Shown here piece by piece: positions 7,191 through 60,490 of a DNA stretch of 64,000 bases. The notes below the pieces were generated by a model. That model had not been told where the DNA came from, did not search any database, and saw only the letters and a list, made by a program, of their open reading frames with translations. Every line of letters starts with the position of its first letter. Position 1 is the first letter of the stretch. Both the position numbers and the translations under genes were made by a program. Source of the stretch: Dehalobacter restrictus DSM 9455. Its GTDB lineage: Bacteria; Bacillota; Desulfitobacteriia; Desulfitobacteriales; Syntrophobotulaceae. Location of the stretch: the NCBI RefSeq assembly GCF_000512895.1, contig NZ_CP007033.1, forward strand, positions 1,971,001 to 2,035,000. Reading direction: 5' to 3'.

Positions 7191-7214
7191 TTAAAAAAGA
7201 CACACAATGTGTGC
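7191..7214 (-). terminator. Hairpin between precursor 2 and kinase 2
   Basis: On the minus strand a CACAC-rich / GTGTG-rich hairpin is followed by TCTTTTTTAATT. Its position directly after the precursor and before the kinase repeats the layout seen after precursor 1, so it probably acts as an attenuator. Confidence 0.55.
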
Positions 7215-7230
7215 CTTTTTTGTTATTGAT

Positions 7231-7407
7231 TTATTTTGGTCCTTTTTGTTCACCAAATGCAGCATAAGATGAACCAGTTGGAGTCCAATCCGTAACATTG
7301 TCAATGCAGCCTACACCAGCATTTCCCTTGTTACAATCAGCAAATACACTTTCAAACTGAGCATACTCCTTGGCATCAAGCATTGGCTTAGTATATTCTT
7401 TTTTCAT
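7231..7407 (-). CDS. Putative radical-SAM RiPP precursor peptide 2 (58 residues)
   Basis: The ATG at 7407 has GAGGTG six bases upstream. An ATG three codons earlier has no ribosome binding site. The peptide starts MKKEYTKPMLDAKEYAQFE, the same leader pattern as precursor 1, and carries a core-like second half with two cysteines eight residues apart (DCNKGNAGVGCIDN) followed by DWTPTGSSYAAFGEQKGPK. It sits immediately downstream of the radical SAM gene, so the cysteines, Trp or Tyr are likely crosslinking sites (sactipeptide, ranthipeptide or C-C bond type). Which bond is formed cannot be told. A decapeptide-scale search of related genomes for the conserved C-x8-C core would define the family. 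Confidence 0.7.
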   Translation of the reverse strand: MKKEYTKPMLDAKEYAQFESVFADCNKGNAGVGCIDNVTDWTPTGSSYAAFGEQKGPK

Positions 7408-7474
7408 AGAAAACACCTCACAAAAAACATATAACTAAATTCAAACTATCATATAATCCAAATTCTGTCTAGTC

Positions 7475-8602
7475 CTATTTTAATTTTTTACGTCGTTTCG
7501 ACCGCTCTTGTGCAATTTCACAAATGTATGATGAAATTTTGTAAAAAGAACCTGACTCTGATTGAAGAATTGCTGGACAGTTGGAGCATTGTCCATTTAC
7601 ATATTCACACTTCATACATTCCTGTGGGAGTTTTATCTTCTCAAACAAAGTTGGCAACCGGTCCCAAGCAGATTGAAACCCCTCTTTAAAAGGTAATGTG
7701 TAAGGACTGGTGAACGAACCACATGGAAGCATTTTCCCATCCCAGGTAATCCAGTACATTGATTTTGCTGCAAGACAAGTAAGAATTTGAGGAGGAAGAT
7801 GAGAATGCTCTAGTGCATGAATATAATTATCAGTATCCATATTTTTTTCCAAAGCAAATTCTGTTTCACTATTTAGAGATCGATAATATTCCCCGTTCTC
7901 TTCAGCTAAATCAAATAACTGAGCTGGTGTTAGTCTGCAGTTTTCTGCATCGGAACAAGCTCCACGCACAGCCTTATTCACTTTTGTATTAATAGCAAAG
8001 CGTCTGGTGTAACGGTTAGCTATCTTACGAAGGGCATTTAATTCATGCCGATTGTCCTTAATAAAAGTTGTACGAACTTCGAGAACCGTTGGGATATCTG
8101 CTAACATTTCCAGACCGCTTATTGTATTGTAAAATGCTTCCCGGTTGCCGCAAATAGACTGATATGTTTCGGGAGTAGCCCCGTACAATGTTACATTTGT
8201 CGCAGTAGGTGGATATTTCTTAAAAAGTTTAAGTATTTCACTATTGATAAGTGTTGCATTGGTATTTAACGTAATAATAAATCCCATCATGGTCAACGCT
8301 GAATATATCTCTGCAAAATCAGGGCGCAATAGTGGTTCCCCGCCGGTAATCAATAGGTTTAGTGTTCCAGCTTGAATGGCTTCTTTTCCAAGGGTAATCC
8401 ACTCATCAGCGGTCTTTTCCCTGCCGATAAGATCTATCTGCGCTTTATCCAAGCGTATATAGCACATTTTACACTTTAGATTACATCGAGCCGTTAATTC
8501 AAAAGTCCCACCCAAAGGTACATGTCTTTGGGCAGCATATCCTGCCAGGGTCATTTCCGAGCTTTCCCACTTCCGGGCAATCTCGTTATTATTATTCTCC
8601 AT
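7475..8602 (-). CDS. Radical SAM/SPASM-type peptide-modifying enzyme
   Basis: 375 residues. The radical SAM CxxxCxxC motif is CNLKCKMCY near residues 41-49, and an LLITGGEPLLRPDF stretch follows. The C-terminal region has the cysteine-rich layout of SPASM/twitch domains (DGKMLPCGSF, then CMKCEYVNGQCSNCP) that hold one or two auxiliary 4Fe-4S clusters. Such enzymes install thioether or carbon-carbon crosslinks in RiPP precursors. It lies three bases after the PqqD-like gene and just before precursor 2, so the three form one unit. The protein is cytoplasmic and oxygen-sensitive by family. Its exact RiPP class is unassigned. Confidence 0.85.
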   Translation of the reverse strand: MENNNNEIARKWESSEMTLAGYAAQRHVPLGGTFELTARCNLKCKMCYIRLDKAQIDLIGREKTADEWITLGKEAIQAGTLNLLITGGEPLLRPDFAEIYSALTMMGFIITLNTNATLINSEILKLFKKYPPTATNVTLYGATPETYQSICGNREAFYNTISGLEMLADIPTVLEVRTTFIKDNRHELNALRKIANRYTRRFAINTKVNKAVRGACSDAENCRLTPAQLFDLAEENGEYYRSLNSETEFALEKNMDTDNYIHALEHSHLPPQILTCLAAKSMYWITWDGKMLPCGSFTSPYTLPFKEGFQSAWDRLPTLFEKIKLPQECMKCEYVNGQCSNCPAILQSESGSFYKISSYICEIAQERSKRRKKLK

Positions 8603-9048: not shown

Positions 9049-10140
9049 ATGAAAAAACTAACAGGCCTCTTATTAATCATCGGAATGTTTTTTATTGCCG
9101 GTTGTGCCAATATTCCCAGCCCGGAATCAACGGTAACCTCCTTTATTGAGGCCGGCAAGAAGTTTGACTTACCCCAAATGGCTTCGATAGTGGATCCAAC
9201 AGACTCAAACAGTAAAACAAAAATTTTAGATCTCATGAGGGATGGCGAAGACGGTAAAAGCCAGTCTCAAAAATATTTTTTGGACTATTTCCAAGAAAAC
9301 GCGGCGAAAATTACATACACTGTAAAGGAGCCGAAAATAGAAAATGATCAAGCTACCCTCACTGTTGATATAAAGTATATGAACGGCGAACCCCTTCTTA
9401 AGGCAGTGCTGCAGGATGTATTTACTGAAGCTTTTACTTCAGCCATCACAGGTTCTGAGATAAAGGACGAAGAAATAGAACAAATGCTGATGTCTGCCAT
9501 GCAAAAACACAAGGCGACTATTCAAGAATCTTATGTGGAAAAATCTATCAATGTTCAATTAATCAAAGTTAATCGCCACTGGTATATCTCCCAACCAAGT
9601 GATGAGCTCTTAGATGTTTTTCTGTCTAATTTCATTTTGGTTACCAAGGAATTAAACAAGAATATCAATTCATCTTCTGATGGTGCCGGTCAGGGAACAA
9701 ACAGCTTCATGGAACAAGCTAAAAAAGAGAACTTGACTATTATCCCCAAAGCTGTTGGCGATGAAATCATCCTTACCTCGATTAAACTCAGAGTGAATCA
9801 TGTAGAAGAAAAACAAACAATCAGCTCAAAATATAGTTATGACAGAGCCGCCAAAGATGGCGCGAAGTTCGTGATCATTAATGCCGACGTCACCAACATG
9901 ACTAACAAAGCATTCACCTTTCCGCCTGATTTAATCGTGGTCGATCATAAAAACCGCGAGTATAAGACCTATGCCGACAGCACGAATACCATTGACAATT
10001 ATCTGGATTACCGGGAACTTTCTCCGGGCATCACAGAAAATGGGAATTGGGTATACGAATTGCCAGCAGACGCTGAAAGTTATAAGCTTTACGTTAAAAA
10101 ATCAGGAACCAGAGAGCTTTATGAGATTTTATTGAAATAA
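9049..10140 (+). CDS. DUF4352 lipoprotein with DUF4878-like N-terminal domain
   Basis: A 363-residue lipoprotein. The signal peptide ends in the lipobox FIAGC, so it should be lipidated and held on the outer face of the membrane. Residues about 25-190 look like an NTF2-fold lumazine-type domain (PESTVTSFIEAGKKFDLPQM), and the C-terminal 130 residues are a DUF4352 immunoglobulin-like domain (FVIINADVTNMTNKAFTFPP). The start at 9049 follows GGGGAGG by six bases. Function is unknown. A diverged, internally deleted copy lies downstream at 12659-12900 on the same strand. It ends in a good terminator at 10219. Confidence 0.75.
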   Translation: MKKLTGLLLIIGMFFIAGCANIPSPESTVTSFIEAGKKFDLPQMASIVDPTDSNSKTKILDLMRDGEDGKSQSQKYFLDYFQENAAKITYTVKEPKIENDQATLTVDIKYMNGEPLLKAVLQDVFTEAFTSAITGSEIKDEEIEQMLMSAMQKHKATIQESYVEKSINVQLIKVNRHWYISQPSDELLDVFLSNFILVTKELNKNINSSSDGAGQGTNSFMEQAKKENLTIIPKAVGDEIILTSIKLRVNHVEEKQTISSKYSYDRAAKDGAKFVIINADVTNMTNKAFTFPPDLIVVDHKNREYKTYADSTNTIDNYLDYRELSPGITENGNWVYELPADAESYKLYVKKSGTRELYEILLK

Positions 10141-22705: not shown

Positions 22706-23362
22706 ATGACTATAAGTAAATTCAAAAAGATTGTATCACTACTTCTGGTAGTAACCTTCTTAATTACCACATCATCTACTGTATTTGCCGCATCAAATAT
22801 TGATGTATCTTCTGTTAAATCTACAAATATATCGAAAGCTGATTATGACAAGGCTATTAATACCATTGAAACCAAATATTTAATCGTAAATGAAGATGGT
22901 ACTTTCTCAATTGATCCAGCAGCGAAAAAAGTTATAGACAATCAAATATTGAATGATTTGATAAGCGGTATGAATGGTATCAATACAATGATAGAAAAAG
23001 GAGACCTTTATACTGATAAATCATCTTCTGATCCAGTGGTAAAAAGAACAAAAAATAAGATGTCAATAATGACGGCAACGGTAACTTATATCTACCATTG
23101 GTATGGTTTTGATGCTATTGAAAATGCAGAAATGGCAGCAAGACAACAGTTAGTATTTGAACAAGCAGCAAATAATGCAGCTCTTCTTGCCATTCCACTT
23201 GGAATGGCCTGGACACCATCTTTGCTTGCATCAGGTTTACAAATTTGGATTATATCTACTTGGGCAAATACATGTGCTCAAGGTGCTCTTGCTAATGGTG
23301 TCATTGTGTTCTGTTTTGGTTCTCCATCAGCTCCCTTAATTTATTCAGTTCAACTAAGATAA
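22706..23362 (+). CDS. Secreted hydrophobic protein, possibly bacteriocin-like
   Basis: 218 residues with a classical signal peptide (KKIVSLLLVVTFLITTSST, cleavage near VFA-AS). The middle is polar and helical. The last 75 residues are hydrophobic (AALLAIPLGMAWTPSLLASG, LQIWIISTWANTCAQGALAN) with two cysteines 13 positions apart that could form a disulfide. I do not recognise the family. The layout (pro-region, then a hydrophobic Cys-containing tail, then a membrane protein of immunity type as the next gene) recalls secreted toxic peptides such as SdpC, but no sequence match is claimed. GGAGG is well placed eight bases before the ATG. Confidence 0.5.
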   Translation: MTISKFKKIVSLLLVVTFLITTSSTVFAASNIDVSSVKSTNISKADYDKAINTIETKYLIVNEDGTFSIDPAAKKVIDNQILNDLISGMNGINTMIEKGDLYTDKSSSDPVVKRTKNKMSIMTATVTYIYHWYGFDAIENAEMAARQQLVFEQAANNAALLAIPLGMAWTPSLLASGLQIWIISTWANTCAQGALANGVIVFCFGSPSAPLIYSVQLR

Positions 23363-23452
23363 GAAGCAAATTATGGTTTTTTAACATTAGCAATCACAGG
23401 TAAAATCCTGTGATTGCTAATTGATATATTCTTCTAGAAAGGGTGTTTTAAG

Positions 23453-23929
23453 TTGAATTATAGTATAATAGCATTTTTAATATTATTAAATATTGGAATT
23501 ATTGTTTTTTTCTGCGTTAGAAAGAGAATGGTCGGTAATATTTTGGAGAAAACGTCTTCATCAAAAAACAGATTTCTTTACTTGATGGCAGGATTATTTT
23601 TTGTTTTTGCGTTAGGAATTAGACAATTATATTTTTATATTTCTCTAAAAGGAAATCTATCTAATTTAGAGACAGAATTAGTCATAACCTTTATGTCAAC
23701 TGGGGTATTTTTCATAATTATGTTTTTTACTTCAAAAGTTTATTTTGGTTCAAAGGGTGTCTTTGTTCCTACGATACCTTTTTTTATACCGAGATATCAA
23801 ATTACTAATTACTCCGTATCTTCAAGTACTCTCATTATAGAAAGAAAAGAGAAAAAAACCTTTAGGCTTAAAATTGAACCTAAGGATGTTAATAAAATTG
23901 AATCTGCTATAGCTTTATTAAATAATTGA
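23453..23929 (+). CDS. Membrane protein with PH-like C-terminal domain (possible partner of the secreted protein)
   Basis: 158 residues: three hydrophobic segments (IIAFLILLNIGIIVFFCV, FLYLMAGLFFVFALGIRQLY and FMSTGVFFIIMFFTS) followed by a short beta-rich domain (VYFGSKGVFVPTIPFFIPRY, STLIIERKEKKTFRLKI). This is the layout of the DUF5673-type membrane proteins. It begins about 90 bases after the secreted protein. If that protein is toxic, this one could give self-protection, which is an inference only. The TTG start at 23453 follows AGAAAGGG. Confidence 0.5.
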   Translation: MNYSIIAFLILLNIGIIVFFCVRKRMVGNILEKTSSSKNRFLYLMAGLFFVFALGIRQLYFYISLKGNLSNLETELVITFMSTGVFFIIMFFTSKVYFGSKGVFVPTIPFFIPRYQITNYSVSSSTLIIERKEKKTFRLKIEPKDVNKIESAIALLNN

Positions 23930-24191: not shown

Positions 24192-24491
24192 TCAGCAGCA
24201 TCCCCCGCTGCTGCCTCCGGAACAGTCGCAGCTTGGTTCTGTCCCTGTAAGCCACCCTGTGATAACGGCTGAAGCGCAGCCCACACCGGACTTCACATCG
24301 ATCGCCTCAAACGGACAATTGCGGGCGCAAGCGCCGCATTCCATGCAGAGATCTATATCCAGTATCTCTGCTTTTTTGCATTTTAAACCCAGGACCTGAT
24401 GCGGACAGACCTCGAGACATCTTCCGCAGCCGGTGCATTTTTCCGTCTTAAGCGTAAGCGTCGAAACATTTTTCAAATAGCGGTGCTTCAT
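24192..24491 (-). CDS. hgcB: Mercury-methylation ferredoxin HgcB
   Basis: 99 residues. Two 4Fe-4S motifs CTGCGRCLEVCP and CMECGACARNCP fit the HgcB ferredoxin, and the chain ends in a cysteine-rich tail SCDCSGGSSGGCC with a vicinal Cys pair, a feature of HgcB thought to bind or deliver Hg(II). It lies 15 bases downstream of hgcA on the same strand, the standard hgcA-hgcB order. HgcB reduces the corrinoid of HgcA to Co(I) so that it can accept a methyl group. Length matches the family (about 95 residues). Confidence 0.92.
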   Translation of the reverse strand: MKHRYLKNVSTLTLKTEKCTGCGRCLEVCPHQVLGLKCKKAEILDIDLCMECGACARNCPFEAIDVKSGVGCASAVITGWLTGTEPSCDCSGGSSGGCC

Positions 24492-24506
24492 ATATCGGCC
24501 TCCCCC

Positions 24507-25664
24507 TCACATCCTGAATAAGGCGTTCAGTAAAATGAGCGTAACTCCAACGCCGATGGTAACCACAATAGTCGGAACAGCGGTTTTCATCTCCTTCATA
24601 ACGCCGGAAAATGAAGTATACGTTGATGCTCCTGTAAAATTCATGGCATAGAATGCAGAAATTGACGGAAGAACGAGCAGATACCCTAATGCCCTCAGCC
24701 AGCTGTAGGAAAGCTCTCCCGGCCAGCCGTTCAGCACATTCACTGCTGCCGCCCAAAGCAAACCCAGGAGCCATCCCTTCCAGGCAAACGCTTTTCCAGG
24801 AATCCACGGCAACAAAACCGGGGTCAGGACACAGCCCACAATCAGCGCCCCGGCATAGGCATAAAAGTCGGTGATTCCAAAAGCTCCTGGCCGGATCAGA
24901 TTCAAGATAAATAAAATGCCTAAAATCATCAAGGACATCTTAAATGTACCGGTAAGTTCCATCGGCGTAAGTACCAACCGGTCATACGCTGTAAACTTCA
25001 CGGTTCGCATTTCGGCTGTCGCTTTCCTTCCGGAAGCGACAAATTCACGGATATCCCAAGCTCTGACCGGACCATACACGACGTTGAAACCGGTTTGTTT
25101 GTGGACTTGATGCGCACTTACCCCAGGAGCGCCGAGCTGCGGCAGAAGCAATGTCCTGTGGGACACAATCTGGGAAAGTCTGGTCTTCCCGATCCGACTG
25201 CTGAGCTCTGCCGTTCCGAATGTCCCTTTGCCTGCCGCGCACCAGACATTAATGCCTTTGGTGTCAAGCACCAGGATCCAGGCCTGGAGTCCGGCCAGCT
25301 CCTTACGAAGGGCATCAAAGGTCATTTTGTAATTAGCCGTTACCAGAACCTCGGAATGTTCATCCGGATTGCCGACAGCATAAAGTCCGGGATTGATTTT
25401 ATAATTCATCCGGTTGATGCCCCAACGGGCTTTCCATCCGCCCAGGATATCCAAAGCTGTTAAGTTCGTCGAAATCTGAGGCACCAGCCCTGCTGGTGTT
25501 TTTATTTCACCTGTAATCCAGCCGCATTCCGTGTCATAAACGGTTACAGACCCTGCTAAACTGTCATCCCCGCAGCAGCATGACTGCGGGTCAAATATCT
25601 TAAGCTCTGCCTTGTTATTAGCATTTTGATTATTCTGATTCGGATCAAAACTTATTTCTCCCAA
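24507..25664 (-). CDS. hgcA: Mercury-methylating corrinoid protein HgcA
   Basis: 385 residues. The cap-helix motif is exact, NVWCAAGKGTFGT, with the cysteine that acts as lower axial ligand to cobalt. The N-terminal domain (about 40-230) binds the corrinoid, and the C-terminal third has about five membrane segments (MSLMILGILFILNLI and following). HgcA transfers a methyl group from methylcorrinoid to Hg(II). Translation most likely starts at TTG 25664: GGAGG lies seven bases before it, and the upstream TTG at 25706 lacks a site. The N-terminus carries a CCCG cluster (SCCCGDD) not needed for catalysis in known homologues. It is followed by hgcB. A pair of structured elements lies upstream. Confidence 0.93.
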   Translation of the reverse strand: MGEISFDPNQNNQNANNKAELKIFDPQSCCCGDDSLAGSVTVYDTECGWITGEIKTPAGLVPQISTNLTALDILGGWKARWGINRMNYKINPGLYAVGNPDEHSEVLVTANYKMTFDALRKELAGLQAWILVLDTKGINVWCAAGKGTFGTAELSSRIGKTRLSQIVSHRTLLLPQLGAPGVSAHQVHKQTGFNVVYGPVRAWDIREFVASGRKATAEMRTVKFTAYDRLVLTPMELTGTFKMSLMILGILFILNLIRPGAFGITDFYAYAGALIVGCVLTPVLLPWIPGKAFAWKGWLLGLLWAAAVNVLNGWPGELSYSWLRALGYLLVLPSISAFYAMNFTGASTYTSFSGVMKEMKTAVPTIVVTIGVGVTLILLNALFRM

Positions 25665-25784: not shown

Positions 25785-25891
25785 GGTCTGGGGGTCACAA
25801 TTCCAGCGTTAAGCGGAGCATGGAGGCGGAGCGCGGCTGTTTGCGTCAAGGAGGACGCAACAGCCGAAAGCGGAATTGTGGCACACAGACC
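25785..25891. repeat. Structured element copy 1 (107 nt, tandem pair upstream of hgcA)
   Basis: Outer stem GGTCTG / CAGACC, inner stem CACAATTCC / GGAATTGTG, and a central hairpin GGCTGTTTGCGTC / GACGCAACAGCC with loop AAGGAG. It is about 83 percent identical to copy 2 and exactly the same length. It could be a structured RNA leader on the minus strand or a DNA repeat. It matches none of the common riboswitch consensus sequences that I know. Confidence 0.75.
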
Positions 25892-25930: not shown

Positions 25931-26037
25931 AGTCTGCGTGTCACAGTTCCGCGACAAGCGGAGCCTGGATGGCGAAGCGCGGCCTTTTGCGTCAAGGAGG
26001 ACGCAACGGCCGAAAGTGGTACTGTGGCACGCAGACC
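25931..26037. repeat. Structured element copy 2 (107 nt)
   Basis: Outer stem GTCTGCGTG / CACGCAGAC, inner stem CACAGT / ACTGTG, central hairpin GGCC..GCGTC / GACGC..GGCC, with loop AAGGAG kept. Compared with copy 1 several paired positions change on both sides (A-T to G-C in the inner stem, T-A to C-G in the hairpin), which supports a conserved fold. The 39 bases between copies and the 66 bases to the next gene show nothing further. Confidence 0.75.
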
Positions 26038-26103: not shown

Positions 26104-27441
26104 TTATAGCCTGCACACCTTCACTTTGGCAATCCTTTTTTCATCCACTTCCTCAACCTTAAACATCAAACTGTTGAATTCTAAGGAAGACTTATCATCT
26201 CTTCCGGGGATTCTTCCGAGCTGTCCAACCAGAAAACCGCTTAGGGTCTCATATTCTTCAATCGGCAGTTCTACGTCGAGATAATCTTGGACCGCATCAA
26301 GGCTCGTCGCCCCGTTAATCATATAGGTATTTTCATCGATTTTTTCAAATTCCAGTTCGATTTCATCATCCTCGTCAAAGATGTTGCCGACAATTTCCTC
26401 AATAAGATCCTCCAGCGTCACAATACCAGCCGTCCCGCCATATTCGTCTATGATAACAGCCAAATGTGTCTTGTTCTGCTGAAGTTCTTTGAATAATTCA
26501 TCAGTACGTTTCGAATCCGGTACATAATAGGGTTTCCGGACAACGTCCCGCAGATGAAATGTCTCCGAATTGCTGTTGTTCGTTAAATACTGGAAAAGGT
26601 ATTTGGATTGCAGCACCCCGACAATATTGTCGATATTCTCTTCATAGACGGGTATCCTGGAATACTTCTCATGATTGATAAAGGCAATGACTTCACTTAA
26701 GCTTGCTTCAATCGGCAGCGCCGCAATATCCGTGCGATGTGTCATGACTTCGGAAACCGTTTTATTGTTAAATTCAAAAATATTGTTAATCATCAGTTTT
26801 TCTGTTTCATGGATGGCACCTTTTTCCTCACCGACATCAACCATCATGCGGATTTCTTCTTCCGTGACCTGCTCGTTCTCCGCATTGGGATCTACCCCGA
26901 AAAGCCTTACAAACACGTTCATTGATGCCGTAAGCATTTTAACGAACGGTGAGGCAATTTTCGACAGGATATACAGCGGGTTTGCGGCAAACCAAGCAAT
27001 CTTTTCAGCTTTATTCATCGCAATTCTTTTCGGCACGAGCTCTCCGAGCACCAGCGTGAAGTAGGATAAAATAATGGTAATTAGAATAACGGCTATAGTC
27101 TTCAGCAAGGATGCTGAAACGGGGGCCCCGAGCTTAATCAGCAGTGAAACCAGCGGATCGGAAAAATTTTCTGAAGCAAACGCACTGGCCAGAAAGCCTG
27201 CCAGCGTTATCCCAATCTGGATCGTCGCAAGAAATTTGCTCGGCTCACCCAGCAAATTGGTTAAAATTCTGGCCTTCTTGTCGCCATCTTCCGCCATCAT
27301 TCTGATTTTATTGTCATTCAGGGAGATCAAAGCAATCTCCGAGGCAGCGAAAAAGGCATTGAGCGCAATCAGCACGACTAAAAACAAAATCCCGGTAATC
27401 AATGATTGTTCCTCCTGATAATAATAAAAAGGCAGAATCAT
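26104..27441 (-). CDS. CorC/HlyC-family membrane protein (CNNM + CBS pair + CorC domain)
   Basis: 445 residues. A DUF21/CNNM membrane domain (about 1-200, starting LIALNAFFAASEIALISLND) is followed by two CBS domains (VSEVMTHRTDIAALPIEASL and following, to LEDLIEEIVGNIFDEDDE) and a C-terminal CorC_HlyC domain (INGATSLDAVQDYLDVELPI). This is the common three-part architecture of Mg/Co homeostasis proteins and hemolysin-C-type accessory transporters. The CBS pair senses adenine nucleotides. It is a single-gene unit, and its 3' end faces hgcA's upstream elements. Ion specificity cannot be predicted. Confidence 0.9.
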   Translation of the reverse strand: MILPFYYYQEEQSLITGILFLVVLIALNAFFAASEIALISLNDNKIRMMAEDGDKKARILTNLLGEPSKFLATIQIGITLAGFLASAFASENFSDPLVSLLIKLGAPVSASLLKTIAVILITIILSYFTLVLGELVPKRIAMNKAEKIAWFAANPLYILSKIASPFVKMLTASMNVFVRLFGVDPNAENEQVTEEEIRMMVDVGEEKGAIHETEKLMINNIFEFNNKTVSEVMTHRTDIAALPIEASLSEVIAFINHEKYSRIPVYEENIDNIVGVLQSKYLFQYLTNNSNSETFHLRDVVRKPYYVPDSKRTDELFKELQQNKTHLAVIIDEYGGTAGIVTLEDLIEEIVGNIFDEDDEIELEFEKIDENTYMINGATSLDAVQDYLDVELPIEEYETLSGFLVGQLGRIPGRDDKSSLEFNSLMFKVEEVDEKRIAKVKVCRL

Positions 27442-44350: not shown

Positions 44351-45631
44351 TTACTCCAGAAGCAACAACCCAAAGTATTTAACGAATTCCTGTTTATCTT
44401 TTAAGGTTCGCATTGTAAAGCCTTGCTTAGAAACGGTAGCAAAAACATCAATGCCGGCGCTTTCCATAGAGGGACGGGTCACTGTACACTTTTTGGGCGG
44501 TGCTGGCGGTTTGCACTCGCTGCAAATATGGCATGGTCCTGCCCAAAAAGAGAACGCTTTATAAAAACCTTGTTTAAAAACCATTTTTTCCGCATTCAGC
44601 ATCAGTTTTTGAAAATCCCTTGTCGGCGGTTGGCCTTCAATCAGAAAAGCTTTGGTATAGCCGTCTAATTTCACCCTCGTTTCCTCATAGGAGGGGCTAT
44701 TTGGCGGACAGCACTTTTCCCCATAGCTGGAGCATCCATAGCGGCAATGATCTTTTGTCCAGTGGGCCATAACCACATCCTGAGGATTGATCATCGTGAT
44801 GGACTGAATAGGCAGTCTTTTTAATCTTGCGTAAATTTGCGCTTCTTTTGTTATGTCCAGCTCTTCTAATTTATGCCTATTCTTGGATGCAAAAATCACT
44901 GAGATATCACCTGTAAGGGGTAATAAAGGCGTTTGATGCATATGCCTCTTCTCAAAAAATCCAGAGACATCTTTAGCAGAAAAGATGTTCGCCGAAAGCA
45001 CGGAACTGTCTTTTTGAAGAAGGTAATTTTCATATAGGTTAATAGCCGTATATAAAGAATATTCTTCAGAATACCGACCCATGACAGCAATTACTGCGTC
45101 ATCGTTAATGGTTTCCGCGTGTTTTTCATAATTTGCGCCTGTGATGATCAGATCATAGGGCAATTGATCATTAAAAGAAATCCCCCTACATTGCTTCATC
45201 ATAAACTTTTGAATTGATAGAGAAAAAACATCAGGAGAAATCCTATCAAGGAAGACATTCCCCCTAAAATATTCTAACATGGACGTAAGTCTTTCAGCGA
45301 TAAAGATATGGCTGATTTCACCGTTTTTTAAAGCGTCCAGGCTAAAAAAAGGACTAGTTGCCGAAAGATATTTGGCGCTGACAGGGGCATTGCACAGATA
45401 GCCTTCTTTCCTAATGATTAAACCCATTTTGTCTAAAACGTCGAGGAAAAGAAACGTTCCTTTCTCATCGAGATGAAGGCAATTGGTCAGATCACCGAAA
45501 GATTTTCCTTCTTCAATCGCGGTAAAAATATCGCATGCCATCGCCTTCTGAAGAATCGCTGCTGTTTGCTGTTCCGCTTTGACTTGCAATAAAAAGTCAT
45601 AGTCATTGTTTTGATAATCAATTTTGTTCAT
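44351..45631 (-). CDS. Fusion: methyltransferase-dimerisation-like N-terminus + DUF2284 metal-binding C-terminus
   Basis: 426 residues. Residues about 10-95 look like the winged-helix dimerisation region of O-methyltransferases (AMACDIFTAIEEGKSFGDL, LDVLDKMGLI). The middle (about 100-250) is Rossmann-like but lacks a GxGxG SAM loop. Residues about 290-426 are DUF2284, a predicted metal-binding domain rich in cysteines (CRYGCSSYGEKCCPPNSPSY and GPCHICSECKPPAPPKKC). DUF2284 proteins are often near corrinoid methyltransferase genes. The gene follows the LpdD-like gene by 14 bases. It could bind an iron-sulfur cluster and serve the UbiD/hydantoinase pathway, but no enzyme activity can be assigned. 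Confidence 0.7.
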   Translation of the reverse strand: MNKIDYQNNDYDFLLQVKAEQQTAAILQKAMACDIFTAIEEGKSFGDLTNCLHLDEKGTFLFLDVLDKMGLIIRKEGYLCNAPVSAKYLSATSPFFSLDALKNGEISHIFIAERLTSMLEYFRGNVFLDRISPDVFSLSIQKFMMKQCRGISFNDQLPYDLIITGANYEKHAETINDDAVIAVMGRYSEEYSLYTAINLYENYLLQKDSSVLSANIFSAKDVSGFFEKRHMHQTPLLPLTGDISVIFASKNRHKLEELDITKEAQIYARLKRLPIQSITMINPQDVVMAHWTKDHCRYGCSSYGEKCCPPNSPSYEETRVKLDGYTKAFLIEGQPPTRDFQKLMLNAEKMVFKQGFYKAFSFWAGPCHICSECKPPAPPKKCTVTRPSMESAGIDVFATVSKQGFTMRTLKDKQEFVKYFGLLLLE

Positions 45632-54814: not shown

Positions 54815-55485
54815 CATGACCACCCGTAAAACGGGTGGCATGCTCTAGCCCTATAAGGGCTTATTGCAAGCCTGCACCTAAAAGTGCTGGCTTGCACTTC
54901 GTTCAAGCCATTCAGCATTTATTACCTGGCTAACCCCTGAAGGGGTCTTCTAACTCTTTGACACTTACCTTATCATTTATCTGATCATGCAGTTCCTGTT
55001 CTCTTACATATTTTGCTATGGTCGCTTCATTTAGTCCCACAGTACTGACATAGTACCCGGTTGCCCAGAAATGGCGATTGCCAAACTTATATTTCAAATT
55101 GGCATGCCGATCAAATATCATCATTGCGCTTTTTCCCTTCAAATACCCCATGAAACTTGATACGCTCATCTTCGGTGGAATTGATACAAGCAGGTGGATA
55201 TGATCGGGCATTGCATGCCCTTCGATTATCTCTACACCTTTATATTTACAAAGCTCCTTTATTATCTGCGTTATATCTGACTTGATCTGCTTATATATTA
55301 CCTGCCTCCTATACTTTGGTGTAAATACTATGTGGTATTTACACATCCATTTTGTGTGTGCTAAACTTTTATCCATAGAAATTCCCCTTCCTTTTTGCTT
55401 TTTGATGGCTTGAACATTCATCATTATAGCGGAAGGTGAATTTCTTTTTTATAATTCTTTGTCTCCACCCGTGTAACGGGTGGTT
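54815..55485 (-). mobile_element. IS200/IS605-type element with single tnpA
   Basis: About 670 bases containing a complete tnpA and bracketed by near-identical hairpins CCACCCGT-loop-ACGGGTGG at 54820-54838 and 55465-55483, the subterminal hairpins that TnpA recognises. No tnpB, no inverted repeat ends, as expected for this family. It lies between the riboswitch terminator and the ATPase gene of the ECF operon. Ends are given to within a few bases. Confidence 0.8.
54930..55376 (-). CDS. tnpA: IS200/IS605-family transposase TnpA (Y1 HUH)
   Basis: 148 residues. The start at 55376 is favoured by AGGAAGGGG eight bases upstream; the frame opens earlier at 55424 but lacks a site. HIVFTPKYRRQVIYKQIKSD, the HUH pair HAMPDHIHLLVSI and a tyrosine region (ATGYYVSTVGLNEATIAKYV) are the IS200 TnpA features. 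It catalyses single-strand transposition with the catalytic tyrosine. It is not accompanied by TnpB. It separates a riboswitch from its operon. Confidence 0.93.
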   Translation of the reverse strand: MDKSLAHTKWMCKYHIVFTPKYRRQVIYKQIKSDITQIIKELCKYKGVEIIEGHAMPDHIHLLVSIPPKMSVSSFMGYLKGKSAMMIFDRHANLKYKFGNRHFWATGYYVSTVGLNEATIAKYVREQELHDQINDKVSVKELEDPFRG

Positions 55486-55576: not shown

Positions 55577-55600
55577 ACCGTCGCTTCATTACGTATCTTT

Positions 55601-55740
55601 ATTGGCAGGTCTTCTGACTCATAGTTTTAACCGACTTCTGTGCCTTCCCAATTTCTCAGTGGCATTGTACAGTCATCACAACTATTTACAGCGGTGGGTC
55701 CGTCCAGGATTTGCACCTGATTCCCTATTCTTCTCCATAA
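55601..55740 (-). promoter_or_regulatory. Cobalamin riboswitch (adenosylcobalamin class)
   Basis: On the minus strand the conserved elements occur in order: GGGAATCAGGTGCAAATCC, GACGGACCCACCGCTGTAA, ATGCCACTG with GGGAAGGC, and GAGTCAGAAGACCTGCC. This matches the cobalamin aptamer core closely. It is followed by a terminator at 55533 and preceded by a sigma-A promoter at 55776. It should switch off the downstream transporter/UbiD/hydantoinase operon when corrinoid is plentiful. Confidence 0.95.
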
Positions 55741-55775
55741 GAGACACCAAAAAGAATATATGATTATTACGTATT

Positions 55776-58855: not shown

Positions 58856-60396
58856 CTATTTCTTAAAGATGCCTTCCGGTATTCCGTCAAAGAACATATC
58901 CGTTCTCATCCACCAAGGCACGTCTTTATAAGTCGCCCACGTCGGAGCATTATAATCGTCCTTTGACGGACTCGGATAAAAGCTCTTTTGCCCCCATAGC
59001 ATGATTTGATGTGCTATTCCGGTTCGATCTCTTACAGCCAATTCACGGCTATACTTATGCAACGCATTGTCAAATCTGCGCCACGGACACACAGAATAAC
59101 AAACACCACACATATGTCTGACGGGAACAGAAGCATAATAGTTCTGACATTTTTCTCTGTCTGACATCCAACGTACCACGCCATCGTCCTGCAGTTCGGG
59201 TTGTCCGCTTGGAATAGAGCCACCAGGACATTTTTCCGCGCAAATACCACACTTGTCGCAGAAATCCTTTAATCCCATGTTGATTGGCCGATCCGGCTCC
59301 ATAGGAAGATTGGTCAGTACAACAGCCAATTTTACCGAGGGTCCAAATTCAGGTGTAACCAATATGCCGGGCCTTCCCATCTCACCTAATCCGGCATCAA
59401 TTGCTAACGGTGTGGGTAAAAGTTCATCCCACCCTATAATTGGGTTTCCGTTATATCTGGCAGGATACCCCAAAGCTTTAATAAAACCCGTAAGTCTTGC
59501 AGCAGCAAGACCTGACCGCGTATATGCCTCAAATGGACTGTAAAAAAGCGGTGTTGCTTCTATTAAATTAGGTTCATGGGGTACAGCAATGACAATTGCA
59601 TATTGCCACCAATCCGGGATGTCTATGGGACCACCTCTTACCCCTCTTGGCGTTATTGGATCGATTCCTACCGCAGCTAAAATTGGAAGCATCCTAGGGT
59701 CCACGCCACCACCCCAGCCCAAGATCCACCTCGGATTGACTTTCGTAATACCCACTAAAGTCCCACCAAAGAGGCCTGCCATTTTTTAATAAGTTTGCTT
59801 GTTTCTTTTGGATCCTTAACTTTTAATGGTTCTTTGATTACACCCTTAAAGTCCCACTCTTTTGGGTCCCCTACTAAGGGAGCAAGCATGCTGGTCCAAG
59901 CCTTGTTCCATGCAGTTGCAATCCCCCACATATCCTTATTCATTTTTTTCTCTTCTTCAGCGAGGTTCGGAAGAAGTTTGGTGAACCATGCTCTATCGCT
60001 TTCCAGTTTATCAGGATGCTTTGCGTAATATTCCTTCAATCTGGGCATTAAATTTTCTTCGCCTTTTTTGCTTAATAAGGCATCTTCCTGATAGTACAGA
60101 CGACGAAAGGTTGGCGAATCAACGTCTTGATCCACACGATTGACTGGTCCTTTAATCTCATAACCAGGCTTATCTACTCTAAATGGCTCACGATTAAAAT
60201 ATACTTCCCCTTGTTCTGATTCCCATCCCATCATCGTATCAATGGACTTTGCATCACCAAAGCTGCTGGCAGCAATTCCCCCGAGTGCCGCTACCCCTCC
60301 AGCAAGCCCGGCAAATTTAAATAAAGAACGTCTGCTGATCTGAACAGATTTAATCTTGTCTGCTACCGAGCCATTTTCTAACTGGTTATTTTCCAT
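58856..60396 (-). pseudogene. rdhA: Reductive dehalogenase catalytic subunit RdhA, split by a -1 frameshift
   Basis: Two overlapping frames add to about 512 residues, the normal RdhA length. The first carries the Tat signal SRRSLFKFAG and a normal N-terminal domain up to LIKKWQASLVGL and a stop at about 59719. The second begins within that overlap (LIKK then MAGLFGGTLVGITKVNPRW) and includes both iron-sulfur motifs, CDKCGICAEKCPG and HMCGVCYSVCPW, and the corrinoid-binding core. The frames join perfectly if the A6 tract at 59782-59787 (minus strand) had seven A's. A start at ATG 60396 follows GGAG by eight bases. This is a mutation, an assembly error or slippage site; sequence cannot decide. 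Confidence 0.9.
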
Positions 60397-60490
60397 CCTG
60401 TTCACTCCATTCCAATTTGTGAAAATAAAAAAGATAATGTTAAAAGTCCCTTAGATGCTAAACATTTGCGCTATGAAGTTCTGGTTTTTT

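Follow-up and report, generated by a model that had tools for sequence, protein, structure and literature searches.

The hgcAB genes enable bacteria to make toxic methylmercury from mercury. In a 64,000-nucleotide stretch of the genome of Dehalobacter restrictus PER-K23T (contig NZ_CP007033.1, positions 1,971,001 to 2,035,000; hereafter the window), a solvent-dechlorinating bacterium, hgcA and hgcB lie side by side on the minus strand, and we put the probability that they form a functional pair at about 95%. Both genes are present in single copy with the complete set of family residues, HgcA has the expected fold, and both genes are under selection. Their coordinates in the window and the evidence used to assign them are as follows.

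24507..25664, minus strand: hgcA (NCBIfam NF040863, Pfam CdhD, invariant columns, AlphaFold model)
24192..24491, minus strand: hgcB (NCBIfam NF040864, alignment of 18 HgcB, cysteine positions)

Identification of HgcA and HgcB

The most plausible start of hgcA is the TTG codon at 25664, because a GGAGG ribosome-binding site lies directly 5' of it; counted from there, HgcA has 385 residues. The in-frame open reading frame reaches 25706 (399 residues), with no such ribosome-binding site for the longer form. Against the equivalog model NF040863 the protein scores 494.8 bits (E 1e-148, curated cut-off 275), and it is the sole match above the cut-off in the 2.94-Mb genome. The cap helix was compared with the pattern N(V/I)WC(A/S)(A/S)GK, which includes the cobalt-ligating cysteine, and reads NVWCAAGK. 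Its cysteine, residue 142, is the counterpart of Cys93 in Pseudodesulfovibrio mercurii (Desulfovibrio desulfuricans) ND132, the replacement of which by Ala or Thr abolishes methylation (PMC7305189). N139, V140, W141, C142, A143 and K146 are invariant across 39 aligned HgcA sequences, and the exact octapeptide occurs in 100 of the 102 loci having a detectable cap motif. It is noted that the residues following the cap-helix cysteine are altered in HgcA of loci L103 (genome G013), L040, L046, L051 and L066, with the variants CAAAK, CAAGA, CAASK and CAAGE.

The gene hgcB starts with ATG at 24491, directly downstream of hgcA on the same strand after a gap of 15 nucleotides, and encodes 99 residues. 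It scores 134.2 bits against the equivalog model NF040864 (E 1.1e-39, curated cut-off 99), again as the single match above the cut-off in the genome. HgcB is a 2x[4Fe-4S] ferredoxin in which CxxCxxCxxxCP occurs twice (Cys19/22/25/29 and Cys49/52/55/59). An extra cysteine, Cys72 within GVGCA, corresponds to Cys73 of ND132, and the chain ends in the pair Cys98-Cys99. The cysteine set is complete and matches positions at which mutations remove or lower activity in ND132, where Cys73 to Ala abolishes methylation and the loss of both tail cysteines costs 95% of it (PMC7305189). At some HgcA loci of relatives (L004, L009, L012, L036, L037, L047, L048 and others), a simple motif scan returned no HgcB, possibly owing to absence of the gene, divergence or contig ends.

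A preliminary description of the window, made from the sequence alone, had placed hgcAB at 24192-25664 and based its prediction of methylmercury formation on the cap helix, both 4Fe-4S motifs and the terminal vicinal cysteines. Both reading frames are confirmed on the minus strand, the upper coordinate agrees with the TTG start, and every one of these residue features is present. The high scores together with the full residue set exclude a chance match, and the prediction has support from the family models, from the residues and the structure, and from selection. The same description considered hgcAB to be seldom found except in sulfate reducers, methanogens and a few Firmicutes. This view is outdated, as putative methylators are now known in close to 1,000 cases spread over 30 phyla (PMC7438021), and among 61 genomes (this one and 60 relatives) 28 contain HgcA above the cut-off.

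Selection was evaluated against two sister Dehalobacter genomes. The ratios of nonsynonymous to synonymous substitution rates (dN/dS) are 0.11 for hgcA and 0.03-0.13 for hgcB, similar to those of neighbouring genes. Purifying selection of this strength argues for a working, maintained pair.

Structural model of HgcA

The AlphaFold model of HgcA, with a mean predicted local distance difference test (pLDDT) score of 82.7, has an alpha/beta domain of the corrinoid type and, towards the C-terminus, five long helices, modelled as membrane helices at residues 226-257, 264-283, 293-311, 322-346 and 352-383. When the model was searched with Foldseek, the top PDB match was the published HgcAB model 9a0b (E 2e-20), with CFeSP structures next. 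The matches 9a0b, 4c1n, 2ycl, 2h9a and 4djd indicate a corrinoid-binding fold like that of the CFeSP C-terminal domain.

Proposed chemistry

By homology with ND132, HgcA would act as a membrane-anchored corrinoid protein, with Cys142 expected to be the cobalt ligand. The two 4Fe-4S clusters of HgcB would reduce the HgcA corrinoid to Co(I), and methyl transfer from S-adenosylmethionine would then give methyl-Co(III); in 2024, S-adenosylmethionine was identified as the methyl donor in vitro for ND132 HgcAB (PMC11588087). Hg(II), thought to be delivered by the C-terminal cysteine pair of HgcB, would accept the methyl group and methylmercury would be released. The cobamide for HgcA must presumably be salvaged from outside, because the cbiH gene of PER-K23 is broken by a 101-bp deletion, and the strain is auxotrophic for corrinoids (PMC4285132). 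The "corrinoid-rich organism" of the preliminary description is therefore wrong, PER-K23 being corrinoid-dependent and auxotrophic.

Genomic surroundings and control

The interval upstream of hgcA is occupied by the following elements.

26104..27441, minus strand: CNNM/CorC-type transporter, the upstream neighbour (same gene upstream of arsR-hgcAB in congener G003)
25785..25891, no strand assigned: palindromic dispersed repeat, copy 1, 107 nt (45 genome matches; fold z-score -7.0; the interval holds arsR in the congener)
25932..26037, no strand assigned: palindromic dispersed repeat, copy 2, 85% identical to copy 1

The palindromic repeat of about 107 nucleotides folds strongly and has 43 of its 45 genomic matches outside the copies upstream of hgcA. 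All five Dehalobacter genomes (5/5) contain it, with 40 or more matches apiece, and two genomes outside the genus gave no match; on this sequence evidence it is genus-specific.

An arsR gene beside hgcA is the usual state in the Firmicutes relatives: of 67 non-redundant relatives, 39 have an ArsR-family gene (PF01022) shortly upstream of hgcA, or 43 when it is counted anywhere nearby; these loci are kin to one another, so the counts are not independent. An ArsR-type regulator is absent upstream of hgcA in D. restrictus and at loci L095 and L100. In congener G003 the order is CNNM - arsR - hgcA - hgcB - P-type ATPase - UbiB, and in D. restrictus and two sisters hgcAB sits between the same flanks, but with neither arsR nor the ATPase gene. 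The simplest reading of these gene orders is that arsR was probably lost in the D. restrictus lineage. Horizontal gain of hgcAB since the split from G003 is not supported, as both flanking genes match; replacement of the pair since that split may nevertheless have taken place, as the HgcA tree leaves room for it at that depth. In another congener, G002, hgcA was not seen, and there the copy of the upstream gene stops at a contig edge.

In ND132, hgcAB is under ArsR control (cited in PMC10349881). With arsR missing here, control must presumably differ in D. restrictus, and hgcAB would be expressed independently of an adjacent ArsR. Promoter and terminator scans of the locus gave results no better than shuffles. 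In a family relative (L130, genome G015; 7198-8280 and 9686-10102), arsR lies directly upstream of hgcA and a gene for a transporter of the SBF family (bile acid/arsenite-type) directly 3' of hgcB.

Cysteine-rich leader of HgcA

The N-terminal segment of HgcA falls outside the family model.

25530..25664, minus strand: HgcA N-terminal leader with SCCCGDD

In the 399-residue reading frame the model sets in at residue 75, and SCCCGDD sits before it. Among the HgcA leaders of the 67 relatives, the starts of which were set by a simple ribosome-site score, CC occurs in 35 and CCC in 23, and CC never occurs in the core; cysteine makes up 5.4% of leader residues versus 0.8% in the core. The cluster is absent from most Desulfosporosinus-type HgcA leaders and is thus not essential. 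The resemblance of the leader to the HgcB tail suggests an arm for thiophilic metals. In a wider proposal, the leader would bind mercury or arsenic, like the HgcB tail, as a second arm that supplies the corrinoid, and would be an undescribed and dispensable part of HgcAB in a pair differently regulated after the loss of arsR. This proposal is tentative and in our judgement rather improbable. A description of such a leader was not found in a limited literature search, which is weak evidence of novelty.

Alternative explanations

Several points weigh against a functional mercury-methylating pair. In the literature searched, no measured methylation rate or methylmercury formation by D. restrictus was found. 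Carriage of the genes is no guarantee of activity, as one of nine hgcAB methanogens tested stayed at or below controls (PMC5893877). Compared with the congener, the locus lacks the adjacent ArsR regulator and the transporter gene on the downstream side, which bears on expression under ordinary conditions, and the native role of HgcAB may be other than mercury chemistry.

The last point leads to the most probable of the alternatives, in which hgcAB is expressed but selected for a different function, one involving some other metal(loid) or corrinoids, and methylates mercury as a side activity. We consider this a real but minority possibility. The frequent occurrence of arsR beside hgcAB, the SBF-family transporter gene beside the pair in one family relative and the arsenic-responsive control in ND132 (cited in PMC10349881) are consistent with it, but no arsenic gene adjoins hgcAB in the D. 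restrictus genome.

It is unlikely that the pair is intact but silent, decaying or unexpressed since the loss of the ArsR regulator and the neighbouring transporter gene. Such a state would fit the presence of both extra genes within the same flanks in G003 and their absence from D. restrictus and two sisters, as well as the palindromic repeats that occupy the gap upstream of hgcAB. However, both genes are open with dN/dS of about 0.1 in three strains, and the ribosome-binding site of hgcA is intact. Moreover, members of the ArsR family are typically repressors, and a member of this family controls hgcAB in ND132 (cited in PMC10349881); loss of such a regulator would rather free expression.

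That HgcA is a paralogue, a member of the HgcAB-like fusion family or a CFeSP fragment without mercury methylation is very improbable, and the fusion-type and CFeSP readings were rejected on scores and residue set, since the equivalog score of 495 bits compares with 193.5 for the fusion family (cut-off 285) and 70 for the ACS gamma subunit (cut-off 306), the cap-helix cysteine and the membrane domain are both present, and a distinct CFeSP-like locus lies elsewhere in the genome (C1:138324, 38.9 bits).

Other features of the window

The preliminary description saw meaning in the co-occurrence of hgcAB with a dehalogenase and a B12 riboswitch in one window.

55587-55766, minus strand: cobalamin riboswitch, followed downstream by an IS200-type transposase (54930-55424) and by an ECF transporter/UbiD/hydantoinase-like cluster
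58856-60405, minus strand: reductive dehalogenase in two reading frames, with the break at about 59755-59782; consistent with Dehre_2012

Neither is linked to the pair. The riboswitch is 30 kb away and belongs to another gene cluster; the dehalogenase is 33 kb away, in another cluster as well, and is frameshifted, as annotated for Dehre_2012 (PMC3910700). Seven cobalamin riboswitches were found in the genome, the window copy included. Five have been described, all of corrinoid operons (PMC4285132), and the window copy seems to be an additional one. Elsewhere in the window, the gene at 44351-45631 (minus strand) encodes a protein that has a DUF2284 metal-binding C-terminal domain and weakly matches arsenite-methyltransferase/DUF2284 fusion families.

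Significance

The presence of hgcAB in D. restrictus is largely known biology, as PER-K23 is already on lists of predicted methylators: it has been treated as a potential methylating taxon from the ORNL (Oak Ridge) hgcAB strain list (PMC5888151), and a published reference set includes Dehalobacter HgcA (PMC7573106). What is added to the preliminary description is the absence of arsR, the genus-specific repeat filling the gap and the cysteine-rich leader; the leader and the loss of ArsR bear on how the pair is fed with metal and controlled. D. restrictus is relevant at chlorinated-solvent sites, and, should its hgcAB be active, dechlorination supplemented with cobalamin could yield methylmercury where mercury is present as well. 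Concern about methylmercury at such sites is established knowledge and nothing new.

Comparison with known systems

ND132 has the same domain order, cap-helix cysteine and hgcA-hgcB adjacency, and its HgcB is likewise a dicluster ferredoxin with an extra cysteine and a C-terminal cysteine pair. In contrast to ND132, D. restrictus has no ArsR gene beside hgcA and would have to salvage its cobamide. A long N-terminal leader containing CCC is further recorded for HgcA of D. restrictus; the comparison with ND132 covers the preceding features only. The large subunit of CFeSP (AcsC/CdhE; PDB 2h9a, 4djd) has the corrinoid-binding fold in common with HgcA, whereas the cap-helix cysteine and the membrane domain belong to HgcA only. 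The remainder of that subunit, a TIM barrel, is absent from HgcA.

Sisters G001 and G004 carry the pair with HgcA 94% identical, the same flanks, no arsR and the repeat in the upstream interval; two small genes (22706-23929) between hgcB and UbiB in D. restrictus are absent in both. Congener G003 (L126) shares the CNNM and UbiB flanks with D. restrictus, but its HgcA is 64-67% identical and lacks an N-terminal CC, with arsR directly upstream and the P-type ATPase gene directly downstream of the pair.
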